Below are positions 21,735-32,831 of a DNA stretch of 64,000 nucleotides, in pieces. The notes under the pieces are model-generated. The model did no database searches. It worked only from the letters and a program-made list of their open reading frames with translations, and had not been told where the DNA came from. Origin of the DNA: Ignavibacteriales bacterium (GTDB lineage: Bacteria; Bacteroidota; Ignavibacteria; Ignavibacteriales; Ignavibacteriaceae); the NCBI GenBank assembly GCA_020061465.1, contig JAGUYG010000009.1, positions 62,001 to 126,000 on the forward strand, given 5' to 3'. The position numbers and the translations under genes were made by a program. Within the stretch, counting starts at the first letter, position 1. Every line of letters begins with the position of its first letter.

Positions 21735-23021
21735 TTGAAAAAAATTAAAGGCTTTAGATGGTGGATCGTAACACTTATTGGCATTGCCACGGTAATTAAC
21801 TATATAGATCGAAATTCTTTAGCAATAATGTGGGTGGATATATCGGCAGAAGTTGGGTTGGATAAGAATGATTATGCTGCCATAGTTTCGGTTTTTATGG
21901 TTATGTATGCATTAGGGCAAAGTGTGTCCGGCAGGCTCTTCGATTGGATTGGAACGAGAATAGGATTTACGGTATCTATTTTTGTCTGGTCGCTTGCATG
22001 TGCACTACACGGAACAGCAAGAACTATTTTGGGCTTTAGTATCTTCAGGGGATTGTTGGGTTTAAGTGAGTCAGGTCCGTGGCCCGGTGCCACTAAGTCC
22101 AACGCCGAATGGCATCCTGCACATGAAAGAGCGTTTGCTCAAGGAATTTTTAATGCCGGTGCGTCGATAGGAGCTGTAATTTCGGCACCCTTGATTGCAC
22201 TATTATATATTTATTTTGGCTGGAAGGCTACCTTTGTAATAATCGGTGTATTGGGTTTCCTCTGGATTGTTCCCTGGCTAATTATTAATAAATCTACACC
22301 CGAAAAACATCCATGGCTTACTGATAAAGAAAGAGATTATATTCTTACAGGAAGAATTCCTAAGGAGAATCGGGGTAAAGACGTGGAAGAGCAAGCACCT
22401 TCCTGGGGAAAGTTATTAACGTATAAAGAAAGCTGGAGTGTAATAGCAGGCAGATTTTTCTTCGATCCCATTTGGTGGATGTTTGTTACCTGGCTGCCAA
22501 TATATTTAACAGAGCAATTCGGTTTTGATATTAAACAAATCGGTTTGTTCGCGTGGGTTCCTTACGTTGGTGCAGCAATTGGTAGTCTTGTTGGAGGATA
22601 TTATTCCGGATATTTGATGAATAAAGGGTGGAGCTTAAACAAAGCAAGAAAAATTGCAATAGTTACAGGTGCAATCATCACAGTTCCTGCGATGATCGTT
22701 AGTGCTTTCGCTGCAACGCCGCTTATCGCTGTTATTCTTATTGCAGTAATCTTATTTGGTTTTCAATTTTCAATGCAGAATCTTCAGACTCTGCCAAGTG
22801 ATTTTTTTAGCGGAAAGACTGTTGGCTCTTTAGCCGGTTTGGGTGGTACAAGTGCAATAACCGGTGTATTGATCATGGTGTGGATTGTACCGGCTATTAC
22901 AACAACGAGTTATGTCCCGTTTTTTTTGATGGGCGCAATCTTAGCACCTTTAGGTGTACTGTGTGTTTACCTTTTCGGTGGTGAAATAAAACGCGTAGAA
23001 TTGAAAGAAGAGATTAAATAA
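21735..23021 (+). CDS. MFS hexuronate transporter (ExuT-like)
   Basis: A 428-residue MFS transporter of the anion:cation symporter group. The opening is NYIDRNSLAIMW, the loop 2-3 motif SGRLFDWIGTRIG is present, and TM4 carries the sequence RGLLGLSESGPWPGATKSNAEW typical of ExuT/GudP-type proteins. About 12 membrane segments can be seen. It probably imports unsaturated or ordinary uronate monomers across the inner membrane. Start codon is TTG at 21735 with ACGGAG upstream. It follows kdgF by 14 bp. Confidence 0.87.
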   Translation: MKKIKGFRWWIVTLIGIATVINYIDRNSLAIMWVDISAEVGLDKNDYAAIVSVFMVMYALGQSVSGRLFDWIGTRIGFTVSIFVWSLACALHGTARTILGFSIFRGLLGLSESGPWPGATKSNAEWHPAHERAFAQGIFNAGASIGAVISAPLIALLYIYFGWKATFVIIGVLGFLWIVPWLIINKSTPEKHPWLTDKERDYILTGRIPKENRGKDVEEQAPSWGKLLTYKESWSVIAGRFFFDPIWWMFVTWLPIYLTEQFGFDIKQIGLFAWVPYVGAAIGSLVGGYYSGYLMNKGWSLNKARKIAIVTGAIITVPAMIVSAFAATPLIAVILIAVILFGFQFSMQNLQTLPSDFFSGKTVGSLAGLGGTSAITGVLIMVWIVPAITTTSYVPFFLMGAILAPLGVLCVYLFGGEIKRVELKEEIK

Positions 23022-23040
23022 CGATTAGCGATGCTTAACG

Positions 23041-24624
23041 ATGAAATTACCAAATAGAATATTGTCAATAAATTTATTAGCACTGATCACCTTACCTTTC
23101 CTTGGGTTGAATCCGTTTGATGATTCCAAATGGTTCCCGCAAATATTGATGGACGATTCAAAAAATTATCTTCCCGATTTTTCTTTCGCTGGCTACCGTT
23201 GGGGGGAAACTGAATTGCCGTCAGCTTCAGGAAAAGTGTTAGATGTAACCAGCTTCGGAGCGGCAGCAAATGATAATATTGATGATACACCTGCATTTAA
23301 TACCGCAATCGCCTCTGCAAATAATTACGAAGGAAATGTTATCATTAGTGTTCCCCCAGGTAAATTTATTATTAAAGATATTTTATGGATAGAACGAAGT
23401 AATCTAATTCTACAAGGATCCGGAAATAATCATAATGGAACCATACTCTTAATGCCAACTCCGATGGAAGAAATGGAACTTCCTCCGAAGCTTGTGGAAT
23501 TAAAAACGTACCTTATCGATAATGATAAAAAAGTATCTACGGGTGAATATTTTTCGGTTTTTTCATGGACGGGCGGAATAATTTGGACAAGAAGCAAATC
23601 GATAAATCAACAAATATTAGCTGATGTTATCGAAGGGAAAAGGGGAGGACAAAAAATTATAGTAAGTGATAACTCGAAAATTAAGTCCGGCGATGTTCTT
23701 CAAATTCGCTGGTATAATACCGAAGGGAAACAGTCAACTCTATTAAATCATATCATGGATAACCAGGAAGTCATTTGCGGCGAAAGACTATATGAAGAAC
23801 CCGAAAAGTCGATAATCAAACAAGAAGTATCTATTCAATCGGTAGATAAAAATACTATAACAATTAAAGAAAAATTGTTACATGCTATTAAACCGGGGTG
23901 GAAGGTTGACCTGGCAGCAGTTAATTTTATCGAAGAAGTAGGTTTTGAAAATTTCACTGTCGAATTTCCGAATGTACCAAATAAAGGGCATCATATCGAA
24001 GCCGGATTTAATGCCTTCTATCTTACAGGACTTCTTCACTCGTGGATAAAAAATGTAAAAATTATTAATGCCGATAACGGTATCTTATCGGATGATTGTA
24101 AAAATGTGACGATAGAAAATTTGGAAGTAAGCGGTAGACATACGCATTATAATGTTCATCTGGGTGATTGCAGATATATGATTGTGAAAAATTTTAAATT
24201 TAATTCCAGCTCCTATCATACGCCCAGTTTCAATACAGGTTCAATCTTAAATGTATTTAGTGGCGGCTACGTTCGTGAAGCGAAATTGGATCAACACTGC
24301 GGGCTAAATCATCAAAACCTATTTGATAATCTTTACTTAGAATTGACAGAATTAAATAATCTGTTTGAACACGGAGGCGCTGGTTATTGGAAACCGACAG
24401 CCGGTGCGTTTAATACATTTTGGAATTTGAAAATTGAATATCAAGTAGCAGCAATTCCGAAAATAAACAACGCTCCGTCGGCACGCTTTGTGGGCATTCA
24501 CGGACCACAAAAATTGGAATTTGAGTACAGACCTAATGCATATTTTGAAGGAATGAACAAAGATAATATCAGCGTTCCGTCACTATATGATTATCAGCTT
24601 CAGCTAAGACTAAGTGGATTATAA
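23041..24624 (+). CDS. Pectate-lyase-3-like beta-helix protein without T9SS tail
   Basis: A 527-residue protein with a hydrophobic N-terminus. The motif LPDFSFAGYRWGE and a GH28-related start (VTSFGAAANDNIDDTPAF, VPPGKFIIKD) precede a long beta-helix. It is related in layout to the gene at 8378 but ends without a sorting domain, so it is probably periplasmic. It shares a 1-bp overlap (TAATG) with the downstream PL6 gene. A role on oligomers, as lyase or epimerase, is plausible, but no catalytic residues can be named. Confidence 0.75.
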   Translation: MKLPNRILSINLLALITLPFLGLNPFDDSKWFPQILMDDSKNYLPDFSFAGYRWGETELPSASGKVLDVTSFGAAANDNIDDTPAFNTAIASANNYEGNVIISVPPGKFIIKDILWIERSNLILQGSGNNHNGTILLMPTPMEEMELPPKLVELKTYLIDNDKKVSTGEYFSVFSWTGGIIWTRSKSINQQILADVIEGKRGGQKIIVSDNSKIKSGDVLQIRWYNTEGKQSTLLNHIMDNQEVICGERLYEEPEKSIIKQEVSIQSVDKNTITIKEKLLHAIKPGWKVDLAAVNFIEEVGFENFTVEFPNVPNKGHHIEAGFNAFYLTGLLHSWIKNVKIINADNGILSDDCKNVTIENLEVSGRHTHYNVHLGDCRYMIVKNFKFNSSSYHTPSFNTGSILNVFSGGYVREAKLDQHCGLNHQNLFDNLYLELTELNNLFEHGGAGYWKPTAGAFNTFWNLKIEYQVAAIPKINNAPSARFVGIHGPQKLEFEYRPNAYFEGMNKDNISVPSLYDYQLQLRLSGL

Positions 24625-26069
24625 TGAAAAAGTATTTAGCAGCTTTCGTTTTATCTTTATTCGTTATAAATATTTTCGCAAATCAATATAAAGTCTCATC
24701 AGCGGAAGAAATCAAAAGTATATTGAAAATTATTCAACCCGGTGATACAATAACGATGTTAAATGGTATTTGGAAAAATCAAGAGATAAAATTCATCGCA
24801 AAGGGAAAATTAGACTCACCGATTCTCCTCAAAGCCGAAACTCCCGGCGAAGTAATTTTAACAGGTTCTTCGAGCTTAAAATTAGCAGGTGAGTATTTGG
24901 TGGTAAACGGACTTTTATTTAAGGACGGAGCTATTGAGAAAGGAGCGGTAATCGAATTTCGAAGCGGAACTGATAAAGAAGCTAACTATTCCAGAGTTAC
25001 TAACTGCGCTATTATAAATTATAATCCACCGGATAAGGATACGGATTATAAATGGGTATCGCTTTACGGCGAATATAATAGAGTTGACCACTGCTATTTT
25101 AGAAATAAAACTCACTCAGGATGCTTATTAGTAGTTTGGCTTAGTGATAAACCGAATTATCACCGGATTGATTCCAATTACTTTGCATACCGACCGGAAC
25201 TTGGTTATAACGGTGGAGAAATAATCAGGGTAGGAACCAGTCATTGGTCAATGTACCCGTCGTACACCATTGTTGAATCCAATTACTTTGAAGATTGTAA
25301 TGGAGAAAGAGAGATCATTTCGAATAAATCGTTTTACAATACTTACAGACATAACACTTTTGTTCGATGCCAAGGAACGCTTACTCTTCGACATGGGAAT
25401 AGCTGCACAGTAGAAGGTAATTTTTTCTTTGGTGAAAATGTTCCGATGACCGGAGGAGTTAGAGTGATTGGTGAGGGGCATAAAATTTTCAATAATTATT
25501 TTTATCATCTTGTAGGAGAAGACGTTTTCGCAGCACTCCCTATAATGAACGGTGTGCCTGATTCTCCTCTAAACAGATATTTTCAAGTTAAGAGTGCTCA
25601 GATTTCTTTTAATACATTTGTTGACTGCAAATACAATATAGTTATAGGCACAGGAGCAGATGAAGAACTTTGCTTACCACCAATAAATTCTGTGGTAGCC
25701 AATAATATATTTTATAATACTGAAGAAAATATTGTAACATTGATTGATGAGCCTCAGAATTTTTTATGGGAAGGTAATATATATCATAATGCTCAATTAG
25801 GTATTGAATCAAACGGTTTTTCAGAAATTGATCCGCTGATTTCACAATTTACTGATGGGTTATTCCGTATCTCTGAAAATAGTCCGGCAATTGGAAATGC
25901 AGTTGGCAATTACAAATACGTTACTCACGATATGGATGGACAGCAAAGAAAAACTTCTAAAGATATTGGGTGTGATCAGTACTCGACTGACCCGGTAATT
26001 TATAAACCTCTAAAAGCGACCGATATTGGACCGAATTGGCTGCAAAATTTTTCAGAAATATTGTATTGA
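24624..26069 (+). CDS. PL6-family alginate lyase, single-domain
   Basis: A 481-residue PL6 lyase with signal peptide (to about IFANQ). The catalytic pair is K235 (ISNKSF) and R256-H257 (LTLRHGN), 21 residues apart, with a glutamate pair in GEREIIS just before. It matches the lyase half of the gene at 5656 closely across RVGTSHWSMY and GGVRVIGEGHK but lacks both the second beta-helix and the T9SS tail, so it is probably periplasmic. It ends the alginate block; a short AT-rich dyad at 26071-26087 follows. Confidence 0.87.
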   Translation: MKKYLAAFVLSLFVINIFANQYKVSSAEEIKSILKIIQPGDTITMLNGIWKNQEIKFIAKGKLDSPILLKAETPGEVILTGSSSLKLAGEYLVVNGLLFKDGAIEKGAVIEFRSGTDKEANYSRVTNCAIINYNPPDKDTDYKWVSLYGEYNRVDHCYFRNKTHSGCLLVVWLSDKPNYHRIDSNYFAYRPELGYNGGEIIRVGTSHWSMYPSYTIVESNYFEDCNGEREIISNKSFYNTYRHNTFVRCQGTLTLRHGNSCTVEGNFFFGENVPMTGGVRVIGEGHKIFNNYFYHLVGEDVFAALPIMNGVPDSPLNRYFQVKSAQISFNTFVDCKYNIVIGTGADEELCLPPINSVVANNIFYNTEENIVTLIDEPQNFLWEGNIYHNAQLGIESNGFSEIDPLISQFTDGLFRISENSPAIGNAVGNYKYVTHDMDGQQRKTSKDIGCDQYSTDPVIYKPLKATDIGPNWLQNFSEILY

Positions 26070-26170
26070 AATTCCAATTATTGGAATAATCTGATTTGTT
26101 AGTAGTATCTGTAAGCATCATTTTTTTTTCTCAGCTAAGTTAACCCCGCTTTTTATATTTAAATATTCCA

Positions 26171-26206
26171 GCTGTATTTTGAGTCCAGTTAACTACCAAT
26201 TCTGCT
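26171..26206 (-). pseudogene. tRNA-Leu 5'-half fragment 1
   Basis: The minus strand carries the D-loop (AGAATTGGTAG) and anticodon-arm (CTGGACTCAAAATACAG) region of tRNA-Leu(CAA), with a mismatch in the anticodon stem. Neither a variable arm nor a T-arm follows. Two similar fragments lie at 26506 and 26790, each just ahead of a GTACC[GA]AAG acceptor-like sequence. Confidence 0.6.
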
Positions 26207-26211
26207 ATGAT

Positions 26212-26395
26212 GTACCGAAGGTCTGTCTCCGTTTCACTTCGCCAGATAAACCGGACTCGAATCTAACTATCAGTAGACAAGCCTGCATGAGATGTAAACC
26301 TTACTAACAATAAAATGTTTGGGGTTGCTCTAAAAATTCCGCAGATGAGTAGTACCGAAGGCCGGACTCGAACCGGCACGAGGTGTGAGCCTCAC
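26212..26395 (-). repeat. Long direct repeat, copy 1 (with tRNA-Leu 3' half)
   Basis: This 184-bp stretch recurs at 26541-26724 with only a few substitutions. The first ~141 bp look like a decayed tRNA-Leu 3' half (GTACCGAAG, then CCGGACTCGAATC), interrupted by about 30 bp (TCTGTCTCCGTTTCACTTCG onward). The last ~43 bp are the T-arm and variable arm of the next tRNA-like copy. Confidence 0.8.
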
Positions 26396-26477
26396 CAACC
26401 AATTTTTTAACAAATTAAAAATTGTTTGGTAAACTGGATTTTGAGTCCAGTTTATCTACCAATTCCACCACTTCGGC
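26353..26477 (-). pseudogene. tRNA-Leu(CAA)-like copy with 39-nt insert
   Basis: Acceptor (GCCGAAG / CTTCGGT), anticodon arm with CAA at 26441-26443, variable arm (GAGG ... CCTC) and T-arm (GCCGGTTCGAGTCCGGC) match the intact copy at 26682. The D-stem is damaged (GTG against TAA). A 39-nt insert at 26395-26433 sits between the anticodon stem and variable arm. The insert folds into a 13-bp hairpin with one mismatch and a 9-nt loop. The anticodon stem can extend to 9 bp. It is probably not a working tRNA, but its conserved arms suggest recent origin or some structural role. Confidence 0.65.
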
Positions 26478-26505
26478 ATGAAAAAATTCAAATAACCGAA
26501 CCGAA

Positions 26506-26540
26506 TTTAGGATCCAGTTATCTATCAATTATCCGATGAA
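26506..26540 (-). pseudogene. tRNA-Leu 5'-half fragment 2
   Basis: A more decayed relative of the fragment at 26171. On the minus strand TTGATAGATAACTGGATCC keeps the D-loop end and the 5' side of the anticodon stem, but the anticodon loop is altered. It again sits directly ahead of GTACCGAAG of the next repeat unit. Confidence 0.45.
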
Positions 26541-26724
26541 GTACCGAAGATCTGTCTCCGTTTCACTTCGCCAGATAAACCGGACTCGAATCTAACTATC
26601 AGTAGACAAGCCTGCCTGAGATGCAAGCCTTACTAACAATAAAATGTTTGGGGTTGCTCTAAAAATTCCGCAGATGAGTAGTACCGAAGGCCGGACTCGA
26701 ACCGGCACGAGGTGTGAGCCTCAC
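26541..26724 (-). repeat. Long direct repeat, copy 2 (with tRNA-Leu 3' half)
   Basis: Second copy of the 184-bp unit at 26212, offset by 329 bp, with differences mainly around GCCTGCCTGAGATGCAAGCC. It runs into the intact tRNA-Leu. The match stops where copy 1 has its 39-nt insert and resumes beyond it in the anticodon arm. Confidence 0.8.
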
Positions 26725-26767
26725 TGGATTTTGAGTCCAGCGCGTCTACCAATTCCGCCACTTCGGC
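26682..26767 (-). tRNA. tRNA-Leu(CAA)
   Basis: An 86-nt class II tRNA. The acceptor is GCCGAAG / CTTCGGT with G1-U72 as a wobble pair and discriminator A. The D-stem is GCG/CGC, with GG in the D-loop. The anticodon stem is CTGGA/TCCAG, and anticodon CAA lies at 26731-26733. The long variable arm is GAGG-CTCACA-CCTC and the T-arm GCCGG TTCGAGT CCGGC. The CCA end is not encoded. It reads UUG leucine codons. It is the only one of the three full-length copies with all stems intact. Confidence 0.9.
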
Positions 26768-26789
26768 AAGAATAAATTTTAAAAAAAAT

Positions 26790-26828
26790 CTGTATTTTGA
26801 GTCCAGTTTATCTATCAATTCCACCATC
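26790..26828 (-). pseudogene. tRNA-Leu 5'-half fragment 3
   Basis: The minus strand reads a D-arm and anticodon arm (GGTGGAATTGATAGATAAAC, then CTGGACTCAAAATACAG) with the same anticodon-stem mismatch as fragment 1 and the copy at 26832. It is followed in the array by GTACCAAAG of that last copy. Confidence 0.55.
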
Positions 26829-26831
26829 AAG

Positions 26832-26956
26832 TACCAAAGGCCGGACTCGAACCGGCACGAGGTGTGAGCCTCACCAACCAATTTTTCAACAAATAAAAAA
26901 TTGTTTGGTAAGCTGTATTTTGAGTCCAGTTTATCTACCAATTCCGCCACTTCGGC
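26832..26956 (-). pseudogene. tRNA-Leu(CAA)-like copy with 39-nt insert, decayed
   Basis: Same architecture as the copy at 26353, including a 39-nt insert at 26874-26912 whose 13-bp hairpin stem is unchanged while two loop bases differ. The acceptor has a mismatch (GCCGAAG against CTTTGGT), the D-stem cannot form (GCG against TAA), and the anticodon stem has one mismatch. T-arm and variable arm are perfect. It is probably non-functional in translation. Confidence 0.65.
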
Positions 26957-27056
26957 AACAGCATGTAAAAGATGAGATGACTTAAAAAATGCGCTGCAAT
27001 TTTAAACCAAATTACTCAGAGTTTCAAGTTAATGAACACTTTGCACAAATCATTCG

Positions 27057-28802
27057 TTAACTCGTTTTGCTGATCTTTGCCCATGTATCCCGCAACGGCA
27101 CTGTTCTATTAAAAACAAATTTTCCTTCCTTAGTATCGACAGTATCCACACAGAAATAACCAAGTCTTTCAAATTGAAATTTATCACCCGGCTTCGAATT
27201 TAATAAGCTTTTTTCCATCTTACATGTATCAAGAATTTCTAAAGAATTAGGATTAATCAATTCCATAAAATCTTTTTCTTTTTCGTATGAAGGATCTTCA
27301 ACTAAAAATAATCTATCATACAATCGAACTTCGGCTTCAATTGCATCGACTGCCGAAACCCAATGTATGGTCCCTTTTACTTTTTTATCGGAAGTTCCGC
27401 TGCCGCTTTTTGTAGCAGGATCATAGGTACATCTTAGTTCAAGTACTTCGCCTGTCTTATTATCCTTTATAACTTTTTCGCACTTGATTATGTAAGCATA
27501 CCTCAATCGTACCTCAGTTCCCGGCGAAAGTCTAAAAAATTTCTTCGGGGGAAACTCAAGAAAATCTTCGCGCTCAATAAAAATCTCACGGGAGAAGGTT
27601 ACCCTACGTTTTCCCATTGACAAATCTTCAGGATTATTTATTGCATCCAATTCCTCGGTTTGATTCTCGGGATAATTTTCAATCACCACTTTCAAGGGTT
27701 TAAGCACAGCCATTACCCGCATTGCCCGTTTATTTAAATCTTCACGAATGCTGTGTTCGAGCAGGGCAACATCTATCATGTTATCCCGCTTTGCTACACC
27801 GACTCTTTCAGAAAATAAACGTATCGATTCGGGTGTATAACCGCGACGCCGCAAAGCTGAAATAGTAGGCATTCTTGGGTCATCCCATCCCGATACAATT
27901 TGTTCTTCAACTAATTGAAGAAGCTTGCGTTTACTCATAACTGTATATGAAAGATTTAATCGCGCAAACTCGATTTGCTGGGGATGATATATTTCTAATT
28001 CGTCTAAAAACCAATCATACAAAGGGCGATGATTTTCAAACTCTAAAGTACAAATTGAATGCGTAATACCTTCAATGGAATCGCTTTGACCATGCGCCCA
28101 ATCGTACATAGGGTAAATACACCATTTATTGTCCGTTCGATGGTGAGATGCATGCCGGATTCGATACATTATCGGGTCTCTTAAATTCATATTTGGAGAC
28201 GACATATCGATCTTTGCTCTTAGAACATGTTCACCTTCTTTAAATTCACCTGCACGCATTCGCTCGAATAATGATAAATTTTCTTCTGCTGAACGGTTTC
28301 GATAAGGGCTTTCCTTTCCGGGTTCGGTATGGGTTCCTCTGTACCCTCTTATTTCCTCCATCGTAAGTGAATCGACGTAAGCTTTTCCTTTTTTAATTAA
28401 CTTAACTGCATACTCAAATAATTGCTCGAAGTAGTCGGAAGCAAAATACAATCTGTCACCCCAATCAAAACCGAGCCAACGTAAGTCCTCAATAATAGAA
28501 TCTACGTATTCAACTTCCTCTTTCGTAGGATTCGTATCATCAAAACGAAGGTTGCATAATCCGCCGTAAGTTTCGGCTAAACCAAAATTAAGACAAATTG
28601 ATTTTGCATGTCCGATGTGTAAATAACCGTTCGGTTCAGGAGGAAAACGTGTATGTACCTTTCCGCCGTATTTATTTGTTTTTAAATCTTCATCAATAAT
28701 TTCTGTAATGAAATTACCCGGTTTGATAGATGCATTATTTTCGTTTTTAATATCGGTTTTGTTCAAGTCCCGTAGATTTTTTGTGTTTTCAGGATTATTC
28801 AT
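27057..28802 (-). CDS. glnS: Glutaminyl-tRNA synthetase
   Basis: A class I aminoacyl-tRNA synthetase of 581 residues charging tRNA-Gln. It has the HIGH motif in [12 protein letters not shown], the KMSKS-equivalent [10 protein letters not shown], and GlnS-type segments [20 protein letters not shown] (read as NLRFDDTNP) and [17 protein letters not shown]-terminal beta-barrel anticodon-binding region follows. A longer start at 28811 sits directly on the AGAAGG ribosome site; ATG 28802 gives normal spacing and was chosen. gltX lies just upstream on the same strand. Confidence 0.95.
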
Positions 28803-28835
28803 TTTACACATCCTTCTTTAGAACGGACGATTATT

Positions 28836-30287
28836 TTAAGATAACTTTTCAATTGCTTTTTTTATTCTATCTATTGTTTTCTCTTTTCCGATTATGAATA
28901 AGATATCATATACTCCGGGTCCGGCTCCCATTCCCGAAACAGCTAAGCGAAGCGGATGGATGAGTTTTCCTATACCCAAATTCAAATTTTCTGTTGTTTT
29001 TTTAAGAGCATTTTCAAAATCTTCTTTACCCGGATTATTCAATAAAGAAAACTCTTCACTAAGTTTTGAAAGATAAACCGGAGTTTCTACAGTCCATCGC
29101 TTCTTAATAACGTCGGGATCGTAATTTTCAATTTCAGCAAAGAAATAAGGACTCTTGGTTATGACTTCACTTACGAAAGTAATTCGTTCTTTCATCGAGT
29201 CAATAACTTTTGTTAAATACTCATCGGAAAAAAAAGATTCATCATAAACTGAATTTTTTAGTGCGCTTCTCAATTCCGGTAAAAGCTCTACTGAATTTTT
29301 ATTCCGGATATGTTCTGCATTTAACCAATTAAGTTTTTCAGTGTTAAAAATAGCGCCGGCTTTGTTAACACTTGCTAATGAAAATTTTTCGATCAATTCA
29401 TTCATGTAATAGAACTCTTTATCATCACCGGCATTCCATCCTAAGAGCGCAACAAAATTTATTAGCGCTTCTTTCAAATAACCCTTTGCGCGATAGTCTT
29501 CCACTGCAACATCTCCCTGCCGCTTGCTTAATTTGGATCGGTCTGGATTAAGCAGAAGAGGGAGGTGGGCAAACACGGGTCTATTCCATCCAAAAAAATC
29601 ATAAAGAAGTATATGCTTCGGCGTAGAAGACAACCATTCTTCACCACGTATAACGTGAGTAATTTTCATTAGGTGATCATCTACTACATTGGCTAAATGA
29701 TATGTAGGATAACCGTCGCTTTTTATTAGCACCTGATCGTCAAGAGTTTCGGAGTTGAATTCAACACGACCCCGAATAACATCATCAATTTCAATAATTT
29801 GGTTTTGAGGAACATTCAACCTAATAACATACGGTTTTAATGCACTCAAATTCTTTTGAATTTCTTCAGGGGTAAGGTTCAAACAGAATTTGTCATATTT
29901 GGCTTGATCTTTTGTATGTTTCTGTTCTTGTCTCAACATACTAAGACGTTCTGGTGAGCAGAAACAGTAATAAGCTTTGTCTTTCTTAATTAATTCCTGT
30001 GCGTGCGTTCTGTAAATATCGAGTCTTTTCGATTGAATGTATGGGCCATAATCACCTCCCTTATCGGGACCCTCATCATAGTCTAAGCCTGTCCAATGTA
30101 AGGTAGAAATTAAATTTTCAACTGCACCGTCAACGAAACGATTGCGGTCAGTATCTTCTATTCTTAGGATAAATTTTCCGTCATGGTGTCTTGCAAAAAG
30201 AAAATTAAAGAGTGCTGTACGAAGCCCGCCGACATGCAAGTAGCCTGTTGGACTAGGAGCGAACCGTACACGCGGAGTAATATTCAT
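28836..30287 (-). CDS. gltX: Glutamyl-tRNA synthetase
   Basis: A 483-residue class I synthetase charging tRNA-Glu. The HIGH-type motif is PSPTGYLHVGGLRTALFN and the KMSKS loop is KLSKRQGD. GRVEF, HVIRGEEWLSSTPKH and LGWN motifs are also typical. Length is normal. It is the first gene of a two-synthetase unit with glnS (33-bp gap). The two enzymes share the class I fold but have different N-terminal signatures, so this is not a recent duplication. Confidence 0.95.
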   Translation of the reverse strand: MNITPRVRFAPSPTGYLHVGGLRTALFNFLFARHHDGKFILRIEDTDRNRFVDGAVENLISTLHWTGLDYDEGPDKGGDYGPYIQSKRLDIYRTHAQELIKKDKAYYCFCSPERLSMLRQEQKHTKDQAKYDKFCLNLTPEEIQKNLSALKPYVIRLNVPQNQIIEIDDVIRGRVEFNSETLDDQVLIKSDGYPTYHLANVVDDHLMKITHVIRGEEWLSSTPKHILLYDFFGWNRPVFAHLPLLLNPDRSKLSKRQGDVAVEDYRAKGYLKEALINFVALLGWNAGDDKEFYYMNELIEKFSLASVNKAGAIFNTEKLNWLNAEHIRNKNSVELLPELRSALKNSVYDESFFSDEYLTKVIDSMKERITFVSEVITKSPYFFAEIENYDPDVIKKRWTVETPVYLSKLSEEFSLLNNPGKEDFENALKKTTENLNLGIGKLIHPLRLAVSGMGAGPGVYDILFIIGKEKTIDRIKKAIEKLS

Positions 30288-30470
30288 AAAATAATCCTTA
30301 ATTTAAGGCGTAAAAATAAGCATAATGAAATTAAGAAATGAGTCTCCTCTAAAAAAGGCAGGATGATTTATGAAAATATTTTTTGAATAATTCTTTAGAT
30401 AAACCTCTTAAATGATTGTTTAAAGTAGATATTCATCACTAGTAGATATAAAGGATTTGAATAAGCGCTG

Positions 30471-32831
30471 TTAAATACTTTGACCAACTTTTACTTCTGT
30501 ATAATATCTCACCTTTTCTATAAATTCCTGGCTATCAATAGGTTTGGGAATATAATCTGTTGCGCCCGCTTCAAGGCATTTTTCTTTATCGCCTTTCATC
30601 GCAAACGCAGTTAAAGCTATGATTGGAGTTTCTTTGTATTCCGGAAGATGCCTTATTTTTTCGGTAGCCTCGAAACCGTTCATAACGGGCATTTGCATGT
30701 CCATGAGAATCAAGTCGAATTTTTGCTGTTTCACCTGGTCGAGCGCCTCAGCACCATTCTCAACAACAACAATCGTATCAAAATTATTTTTCTTCAGAAG
30801 TCTTGTAACAATTATCTGAGAGTGCTTATAATCCTCAACGAGCAGTATTTTTACCGAATCTTGATGTTTAGGTAGCTCTTCCGGCGGTGTGGGTTCGTCG
30901 TACCTATTTATCATTGCATTAATTGTTTCGGAAAGATCTTCTATGTTTGAACTGCTTTTTTCTAACAATTCCTCGAATAAACCATCAATCTTTTTCAAAT
31001 CGGCTTGATAATTTTCTTTCCCCGTATAGATGATAACAGGCAGCCGTGAAAAGTTTGGTCTAGATTTTATCAGTTTAATTAAATCGAAACCGTTAACTTC
31101 GGGCATATCAAGATCGATTATCGCAAGATCGAGATTCATGTTCTCAATCATGTTTATAACTTTGTTTGAATGCGATTCGGCAACTGCATTATAGCCGGCT
31201 TGTTCAACAGCTTCTTTAATTAAATTTAAGGTAGGAACATCGTCATCCACAATTAAGATATTCGAATCTTTTTTGAGCCGGTAGCTGGTTAAAACTTCAA
31301 CAAGGAACTTGTATTTGATCGGTTTAACAAAATACTCAACTGCACCCATTAAAAATGCTTTCTGCTGTTCAGCTTCAACAGAACAAATTATAATTGGCGT
31401 ATTCTTTGAATTTTTGTGCTCACGAATTCGCTGCAGCAGTTCAAATCCGTTTACATCCGGCAGCACTATGTCCATTAACACCGCAAGAAAGACCTCTTTA
31501 TCTATAGCCTTTAGAGCTTGTTCGGCAGAATTTACTAAAGTTGGTTCATAACCCCACTTGTTGAGATAGTTGCTTAAGAGCCTGGCTGTAGCGTAGTCGT
31601 CCTCCACTACCAGCACATTGTTTTTCTTGCCCGGTTTTGGCAAAGCAGTTACCTGGGTTTCAATTGTTGAAAGGAGTTCAGCACCTATGGTGAAATTATA
31701 AGTAATTCCTTTTCCTAATGTGCTCGTAACATCTATACTGCCACCAAGAAGTTCGATATATTTTTTACATAAGATTAATCCTAATCCTGTAGAACCCGAT
31801 ATTTTGTTAGAGCCGATTTCAGTCAAGGTAAACGGTTTGAAGAAATCTTTTAGCTTACTGCTGGGAATACCGGGGCTAGTATCGGAAATCTTTATGTTCA
31901 ATTTATTTTGCCGGGCAGGACTTACCGAAATCGTAATCTTTCCTCTCTCGGTTAACTTAAGCGAATTGGTTATAAAGTTTACTAATATGTATCGGAGCTT
32001 TTGAGAATCAATTTTTATTTGAGCTGGAAGATCATCGCTAAAGTGAGTTAGAAATTCGATTTGATTACCGACGACCTTATCTTTGAATAATTTAATAACA
32101 TCATCAATAAAATGTTTGATTTCTATAATTGTCAAATTTTCTTTATTACTGCCGGAATCAATTTTTGCCAGGTCGATTAAATCGTTTATTAAAGAGAGTA
32201 GATTGAATGCACTCTCTTTCAATGTAGTTACATATTCAGCTTGAGAGGAAGTTAGATTGTCTTCATTAAGAAGCGAAGCAAAACCCATAATACTGTTTGT
32301 GGGTGTTCGTAATTCATGTGCAATGTTGGTTACAATTTCGCTTAATGTAATATCAACTTTGCCGTTATTACCGAGCCATATCCTCAAAAGATAAGCTACG
32401 GTCTCTCCGATGATTTCAAGATTATCTCTATCGGTTTTAGAGAAAGGTGTTTTCTTTGCAATCTTTAGTAAGGCTTTCTCCGAATCATTTATCTTAACGA
32501 ATAAACAACCTTCATAAATAACAAATTCCGAAACCTGTATTTCACAATCTGATTGAGAGTTGAAGCTGATGTTTTGAGCGGTGTTTTTTAATGCACTGCA
32601 GCTTTCACAGGAAAACGCTGCATTAGTAAGATATGCCTTTTTAGATGAACCAGATTTACCCAACACTTTTAGTGTATTCTTTTCTTTAATCTTGAATAGA
32701 ACAATTGCTTGAAGATCAAATTCACCTGCCAGGTATTCACATAGCTTATCGGGAAAATCATTTGAGGCAATGAGAGCCGCTTTAAGCAAATCATTATATT
32801 TGTTTAAATAATCAATTTTTACAATTTGCAT
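30471..32831 (-). CDS. Soluble hybrid histidine kinase with three receiver domains
   Basis: A 786-residue signalling protein with no membrane segment. An N-terminal GAF-like region (~10-150) contains a cysteine cluster (SCESCSAL, then C96). HisKA has phospho-acceptor H172 in NIAHELRTP. The HATPase domain (~265-385) has an N-box near NFITNS and DTSPGIP, where DTGPG is usual. Three receivers follow with acceptor aspartates D454 (LMDIVLPD), D573 (IIDLDMPE) and D711 (LMDMQMPVMNG). The ribosome site AAAGGG precedes ATG 32831. No partner output regulator lies nearby. The N-terminal ligand is unknown. Confidence 0.88.
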   Translation of the reverse strand: MQIVKIDYLNKYNDLLKAALIASNDFPDKLCEYLAGEFDLQAIVLFKIKEKNTLKVLGKSGSSKKAYLTNAAFSCESCSALKNTAQNISFNSQSDCEIQVSEFVIYEGCLFVKINDSEKALLKIAKKTPFSKTDRDNLEIIGETVAYLLRIWLGNNGKVDITLSEIVTNIAHELRTPTNSIMGFASLLNEDNLTSSQAEYVTTLKESAFNLLSLINDLIDLAKIDSGSNKENLTIIEIKHFIDDVIKLFKDKVVGNQIEFLTHFSDDLPAQIKIDSQKLRYILVNFITNSLKLTERGKITISVSPARQNKLNIKISDTSPGIPSSKLKDFFKPFTLTEIGSNKISGSTGLGLILCKKYIELLGGSIDVTSTLGKGITYNFTIGAELLSTIETQVTALPKPGKKNNVLVVEDDYATARLLSNYLNKWGYEPTLVNSAEQALKAIDKEVFLAVLMDIVLPDVNGFELLQRIREHKNSKNTPIIICSVEAEQQKAFLMGAVEYFVKPIKYKFLVEVLTSYRLKKDSNILIVDDDVPTLNLIKEAVEQAGYNAVAESHSNKVINMIENMNLDLAIIDLDMPEVNGFDLIKLIKSRPNFSRLPVIIYTGKENYQADLKKIDGLFEELLEKSSSNIEDLSETINAMINRYDEPTPPEELPKHQDSVKILLVEDYKHSQIIVTRLLKKNNFDTIVVVENGAEALDQVKQQKFDLILMDMQMPVMNGFEATEKIRHLPEYKETPIIALTAFAMKGDKEKCLEAGATDYIPKPIDSQEFIEKVRYYTEVKVGQSI

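Follow-up and report, generated by a model that had tools for sequence, protein, structure and literature searches.

Palindrome-interrupted tRNA-Leu copies in an Ignavibacteriales genome as a candidate scar of a tRNA-homing GIY-YIG nuclease

Group I introns occur in bacterial tRNA-Leu genes, Rickettsia palindromic elements and REP-type repeats are short dispersed palindromes inserted into genes, and partial tRNA duplicates are typical of integrative elements that target tRNA genes. Mobile elements are also described as leaving fragments of tRNA genes behind, an example being a 21.4-kb element (PMC9897764). The closest tested precedent for the array considered here is SegB of phages T4 and T6, which is described as a free-standing GIY-YIG homing endonuclease of the tRNA region (PMC13096335). 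Its GIY-YIG activity drives tandem amplification of the tRNA-nuclease segment, as the same report establishes experimentally, and donor alleles in homing are typically cut inefficiently (PMC13096335). A search of the open-access literature other than bioRxiv returned no report of GIY-YIG genes that lie in chromosomes beside tRNAs accompanied by palindrome-broken copies.

We analyzed a stretch of 64,000 nt from an Ignavibacteriales bacterium (contig JAGUYG010000009.1, positions 62,001 to 126,000 of the forward strand; referred to as the window), which contains an array of tRNA-Leu copies on its minus strand. The intact tRNA-Leu(CAA) gene lies at 26682-26767 (ARAGORN; 60.4 bits in Rfam) and is flanked, one on each side, by two full-length copies that are interrupted by a hairpin and have a broken D-stem. 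Copy A occupies 26353-26477 (41.9 bits, with a non-standard D-stem pair marked by Rfam) and copy C, which has one anticodon-stem mismatch in addition, 26832-26956. Between 26170 and 26829 there are at least five more tRNA-Leu copies, all of them decayed or partial. A decayed copy with extra palindromic inserts at 26541-26681 (repeat family D1 and alignment) has a second decayed copy at 26212-26352 (repeat family D1) as its tandem partner at a spacing of 329 nt. Family D1 measures 239 nt and shows 92% identity to the unit at 26157. Each of the two decayed copies contains a palindrome with a TAAA tail, read directly at 26551-26579 and 26222-26250, respectively. The other pieces are 5' halves: one of the GATAAAC type at 26790-26829, read directly and found as a repeat match (C15:88790-88826, 95%), a decayed one at 26500-26538 and one at the distal end of the array at 26170-26207, the latter two read directly and aligned. 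Elsewhere in its own genome, the array matches only tRNA-Leu(TAA) and tRNA-Leu(TAG). Upstream of the array, a glutaminyl-tRNA synthetase gene (27057-28811, minus strand; Pfam PF00749/PF03950) provides a syntenic anchor, as this gene is also found near tRNA-Leu(CAA) in many relatives. A gene of the chondroitinase B family beside a pectate-lyase-like gene and an MFS transporter at 21735-26069 is probably a polysaccharide-use cluster.

A preliminary description of this DNA had reported a 39-nt insert between the anticodon stem and the variable arm of a tRNA-Leu copy, and a second occurrence of the same insert. Both are real: the insert of copy A (TTTA followed by CCAAAC...GGTTGG) lies at 26395-26433 and that of copy C at 26874-26912, both on the minus strand and within copies that share 95% identity over 128 nt. 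The 13-bp hairpin assigned to the insert is found in copy C, whereas the minimum free energy structure of copy A has 11 bp. Likewise, the inserts had been said to differ in two loop bases with an identical stem, but there are three differences, one of them in the TTTA that precedes the hairpin and two near the apex, where the changes in copy C extend its stem. Taken alone, the insert of copy C has a better fold than 200 of 200 shuffles (z -4.0), while the isolated insert of copy A is only modestly above its shuffles (z -1.5). In copy A (minus strand, 26420-26464), a 19-nt imperfect inverted repeat flanks the anticodon loop, with one half in the D-arm and the other at the start of the insert; this pairing would compete with the insert's own hairpin.

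Copies A and C retain the acceptor and T stems and, after the insert, a normal variable arm. In both, the 3' strand of the D-stem is replaced (GACGCG to GATAAA), which explains the non-standard D-stem pair in copy A and the score of copy C (22.5 bits), which falls under the Rfam gathering score of 29 and leaves the D-stem and the anticodon arm unaligned. Neither copy shows in Rfam the complete cloverleaf stems of a functional tRNA. Given the loss of the D-stem in copies A and C and the decay of the copies around them, an intron or a functional tRNA variant is unlikely; the broken D-stems and the decayed neighbors had escaped the preliminary description. Two of its suggestions are not supported, an unusual variable arm, since the normal arm is kept, and a removable intervening sequence; the lost D-stem, the anticodon-stem mismatch of copy C and the decayed neighbors speak against either. 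It also stated that the insert is too short for a group I intron and lies outside the anticodon loop; the insert has 39 nt and matches no Rfam intron family (none among the four matches up to an E-value of 1 in 26100-27050). The closest of its options is a small mobile hairpin, with which the palindromy and the TTTA/TAAA tail, resembling inserts found across the class, agree. However, genomic copies elsewhere are missing: with up to three mismatches allowed, the insert occurs in its own 4.2-Mb genome only in copies A and C, and a search for the hairpin outside tRNAs thus came back empty. Shuffling the window 100 times gave no match. The insert therefore lacks the many genomic copies of a dispersed repeat of the REP/RPE type, and a dispersed mobile hairpin is ruled out for this 39-nt sequence by the count of two. 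Overall, the earlier interpretation is partly supported.

Copy C was used as a query against 146 related genomes and the resulting loci were read. Hairpin-type Leu copies with the signature GG[CT][AT]GATAAAC are present in eight genomes of one family, namely the window's own genome (G000), G008, G021, G028, G033, G035, G071, and G073. In the eight-row alignment, the apex of the hairpin is variable, the outer arms (CCAA/TTGG or similar) are kept in most rows and the outer pairs hardly vary. In G021, a TTTACC-type palindrome is found again within the T-arm. A stringent pattern run against 391 genomes of the class, a sample that excluded G033, G035, G071, and G073, matches only G000 (twice), G008 and G028, and the backward control gives one match. 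Four of the eight genomes have an intact GIY-YIG gene at the locus and a fifth has a degenerate start of such a gene directly after the copy. The strict signature is associated with GIY genes in 4/8 compared to 13/76 genomes, which is borderline (p 0.049), or in 5/8 if the degenerate gene is counted (p 0.01). This stricter pattern was chosen after the first result had been seen, because the 8-mer AGATAAAC is too weak as a locus signature; with the 8-mer, no GIY association is seen at tRNA-Leu(CAA) loci (p 0.25). The tRNA-Leu(CAA) locus could be read in 84 genomes, of which 17 have a GIY gene within 700 nt and 19 have extra tRNA pieces; the two occur together in nine (p 0.002).

Several tRNA-Leu(CAA) loci are worth describing individually. 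In Ignavibacteria bacterium GWC2_36_12 (L083:3118-3456; L216 is alike), a GIY-YIG ORF abuts a palindrome-bearing 5' half of tRNA-Leu(CAA), starts after the first two anticodon-loop bases of this broken half and ends where the complete tRNA-Leu begins. In G019 (L046:771-1543), about ten units with a spacing of 77 nt precede the intact gene, each comprising a tRNA-Leu(CAA) 5' half with the palindrome CTGTCTGCCGACAGGCAGG at the end of the D-loop; no GIY gene was found at this array. Many draft contigs end less than about 250 nt from tRNA-Leu(CAA) (L181, L182, L192, L193, L198, L217, L218, L227, L236, L237, and others), as expected if repeats at this place break assemblies.

Broken copies are not confined to leucine. 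Our survey comprised 171 tRNAs from the own genome and from the single-contig complete genomes G019, G026, and G099, and compared each tRNA with the 1.2 kb on either side of it, to the extent that these flanks had been fetched. Same-strand partial copies lie within 1.2 kb of 44 of the 171 genes, compared to 1/171 for the opposite strand and 1/171 for the flank of a tRNA of a different isotype. The copy-bearing tRNAs are distributed over all four genomes (10/44 in G000, 15/42 in G019, 7/42 in G026 and 12/43 in G099), and an earlier run with a near-identical method gave the same 10/44 and 15/42 for G000 and G019. Copies A and C are recovered by the same procedure (L031) and fall under the definition of a palindrome-broken copy. 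Many copies consist of 5' or 3' halves only. Many of the relatives are drafts, in which tandem repeats can be mis-assembled; the three complete genomes agree. At two tRNA-Val loci of G019 (L271 and L309), near full-length copies carry a different palindrome in each of the D-loop, the anticodon arm and the T-loop.

The inserts favor loops. Among 44 distinct inserts, 14 lie in the D-loop, 14 in the T-loop and three in the anticodon loop, and the remainder in the anticodon stem (five), the T-stem (four), the D-stem (two) and the variable region (two). None lies in the acceptor stem, to which the present method is blind. The 31 of 44 loop inserts compare with an expectation of 29% (p 1.5e-8 against a uniform spread), and the excess persists without the tRNA ends, where inserts go undetected by the method (p 1.3e-5); events that share a genome and a palindrome family are not fully independent, and the count leaves out one 95-nt insert and repeated break positions. 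Of 36 distinct inserts, 22 fold better than 95% of shuffles and 14 do not. By eye, several consist of a short inverted repeat followed by TAAA, like the window insert read on the other strand. Compared to the others, the window insert is longer, A/T-rich and atypical in its position at the junction of anticodon and variable arms. In G019, the palindrome TCCGTTAGCTAACGGA lies within tRNA copies at six of its seven places, and two families carry it at one and the same position in the T-loop of tRNA-Asn. In G022, TCCGTTAGCTAACGGA has 113 exact copies, with no tRNA in the three loci read, and might represent a dispersed palindromic repeat family; it is found away from tRNAs in other genomes as well. 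Because dispersal in a relative is seen for at least one palindrome, the palindromes need not belong to a nuclease unit at the tRNAs.

The small ORFs at the Leu loci of relatives encode GIY-YIG proteins according to Pfam, which have a length of about 80 aa and contain little besides the catalytic domain. G019, G026, and G099 possess 40 standalone GIY domains that form 21 clusters (six long ORFs of 562-622 aa, taken as UvrC-like, were left out). Fifteen of these clusters are found 300 nt or less from a tRNA, compared to a random mean of 0.23 and a maximum of 3 in 2000 placements, and every GIY gene at a distance of up to 1 kb from a tRNA is located on the strand of that tRNA (33/33). At several loci, up to five near-identical units are arranged in tandem, and palindrome-broken tRNA parts separate the genes. 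Broken copies accompany 17 of 20 tRNAs with a GIY gene nearby and 27 of 151 tRNAs without (p 4e-9), GIY genes in these locus counts, and at the tRNA-Leu(CAA) loci above, being detected by small HMMs built from the GIY proteins of this study and not by Pfam; conversely, 27 of the 44 copy-bearing tRNAs have no GIY gene within 700 nt. After near-duplicates from the same genome and tRNA had been dropped (40 to 31 proteins), the GIY tree is organized by tRNA identity, with groups that cut across host families. It requires 12 label changes, with a minimum of 9 and a shuffled mean of 20.8, and none of 200 shuffles is as low. The Leu, Pro, Asp, and Cys proteins group well, while those of Ser and Arg do so only partly and are not single clades. 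A phylum sample of 118 genomes added 25 newly fetched GIY loci, seven of them with a tRNA in reach; four of the seven belong to genomes outside the class, and two of these have partial copies. Outside the class, GIY-YIG genes and partial copies are seen at tRNA-Leu(CAA) and tRNA-Leu(GAG) in L396 (G530) and L389 (G525).

The own genome has GIY genes together with palindrome-broken pieces at tRNA-Asn and tRNA-Pro. None of its seven GIY matches lies on the contig of the window, and tblastn finds nothing convincing as a GIY gene or remnant at the window locus (best E-value 0.096). Two features of a GIY-YIG homing unit, an adjacent and co-oriented nuclease gene and a nuclease lineage that matches its target, are present in the relatives, and a nuclease gene at the locus is absent from the window. 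As the window has no such gene, the homing account is extended to it from its relatives.

The combination of GIY-YIG genes and broken tRNA copies points to a family of selfish genes that target tRNAs and have drawn little notice. The simplest account to cover the Leu array as well as the other tRNAs and the nuclease would be a tRNA-homing GIY-YIG unit that is amplified along with parts of its target. The best reading of the window, toward which the balance of probability tilts slightly, is a GIY-less scar of such a unit, with copies A and C as dead, palindrome-interrupted duplicates and as one instance of an arrangement that is common in the class. The GIY-YIG nuclease would be of the homing type and cut the tRNA gene to which it is matched, and recombinational repair would lead to tandem amplification of segments comprising tRNA and nuclease. 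Selection would keep one intact tRNA, and extra copies could survive once a palindrome has abolished the site of recognition or cleavage or has disrupted the tRNA fold. Loss of the nuclease gene, which the window would once have possessed, would leave the broken copies as a scar. The palindromes may sit in loops due to protection against the nuclease, exclusion of misfolded tRNA or an insertion chemistry that favors loops. Simple homing must also explain why an intact tRNA persists beside apparently intact GIY genes. A wider proposal, plausible although we would stop short of calling it probable, is that Bacteroidota and above all Ignavibacteria harbor undescribed chromosomal selfish units, in which minimal GIY-YIG homing nucleases, one tRNA per lineage, spread in tandem and produce palindrome-capped copies that are proof against re-cutting. 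The window would then be a fossil of the leucine lineage.

Plain pseudogene decay would do without such a unit: tRNA genes would have been duplicated in tandem, dispersed selfish palindromes would have landed in the duplicates and GIY-YIG genes would have gathered at tRNAs independently. The dispersal of TCCGTTAGCTAACGGA in G022 (113 copies) and its occurrence off tRNAs in other genomes fit this explanation, as do the 27/44 copy-bearing tRNAs without a nearby GIY gene. However, the concentration of inserts in D- and T-loops, the shared T-loop site of tRNA-Asn in two families, the presence of the G019 palindrome in tRNA copies at 6/7 places and the strong co-occurrence of GIY genes and copies argue against it, and we consider decay unlikely, if deserving of attention. 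The copies might instead have a function as tRNA-like RNAs whose arms are capped, for instance as decoys for toxins or nucleases that cleave tRNAs. While the tRNA-Val copies of G019 keep a tRNA outline with three arms replaced or extended by palindromes, and acceptor and T stems are kept in copies A and C, many copies are mere 5' or 3' halves, the D-stem is lost in the window copies, decay is far advanced in the units at 26212-26352 and 26541-26681, and the anticodon-stem difference between A and C has no compensatory change, making a function of this kind improbable.

Scars left at attachment sites by integrase-type islands with tRNA-Leu as their target are a highly improbable source of the array, even though partial tRNA duplicates are generally in line with integrative elements. 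No integrase is found in the six neighboring ORFs scanned with Pfam (21735-32831), 5' halves and whole palindrome-bearing copies are present instead of simple 3'-end repeats, and the pattern recurs at many different tRNAs with the GIY gene as its companion. Lastly, a tRNA with a removable intervening sequence is scarcely credible. Removal of the insert does yield a tRNA-like sequence, and copy A reaches 41.9 bits, but both D-stems are broken, the insert lies outside the anticodon loop, a complete and uninterrupted gene stands between copies A and C, and comparable copies elsewhere are truncated or abut a GIY gene.

If the tRNA-homing GIY-YIG unit is real, about a quarter of the tRNA genes in four genomes (44/171) would be scarred by, or live with, one family of nucleases, which would explain odd tRNA pseudogenes and fragments in genome annotation and constitute a chromosomal counterpart to phage SegB. 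The GIY proteins, which fall under ten tRNA labels, would moreover make available some ten natural pairs of nuclease and target, in each of which a nuclease lives beside its own essential target. It would also raise the question of how palindromes arrive in the loops of structured genes.

With group I introns, the window array shares an insert within a tRNA-Leu gene, but this insert has 39 nt, lies outside the anticodon loop and matches no intron family. In contrast to Rickettsia palindromic elements and REP-type repeats, the palindromes take preferred loop positions of partial tRNA copies, and the window insert is not dispersed. Partial tRNA copies near an intact tRNA are a feature in common with the mobile element of PMC9897764; a term search of that text gives neither a GIY gene nor a palindromic insert in tRNA fragments. 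Like SegB, as portrayed in PMC13096335, the loci described here combine a GIY-YIG gene beside tRNA genes with tandem segments of tRNA and nuclease. Unlike phage SegB, they reside in bacterial chromosomes, involve many tRNA species with GIY lineages matched to them, encode proteins of only about 80 aa and carry palindromes in the loops of the extra tRNA copies.
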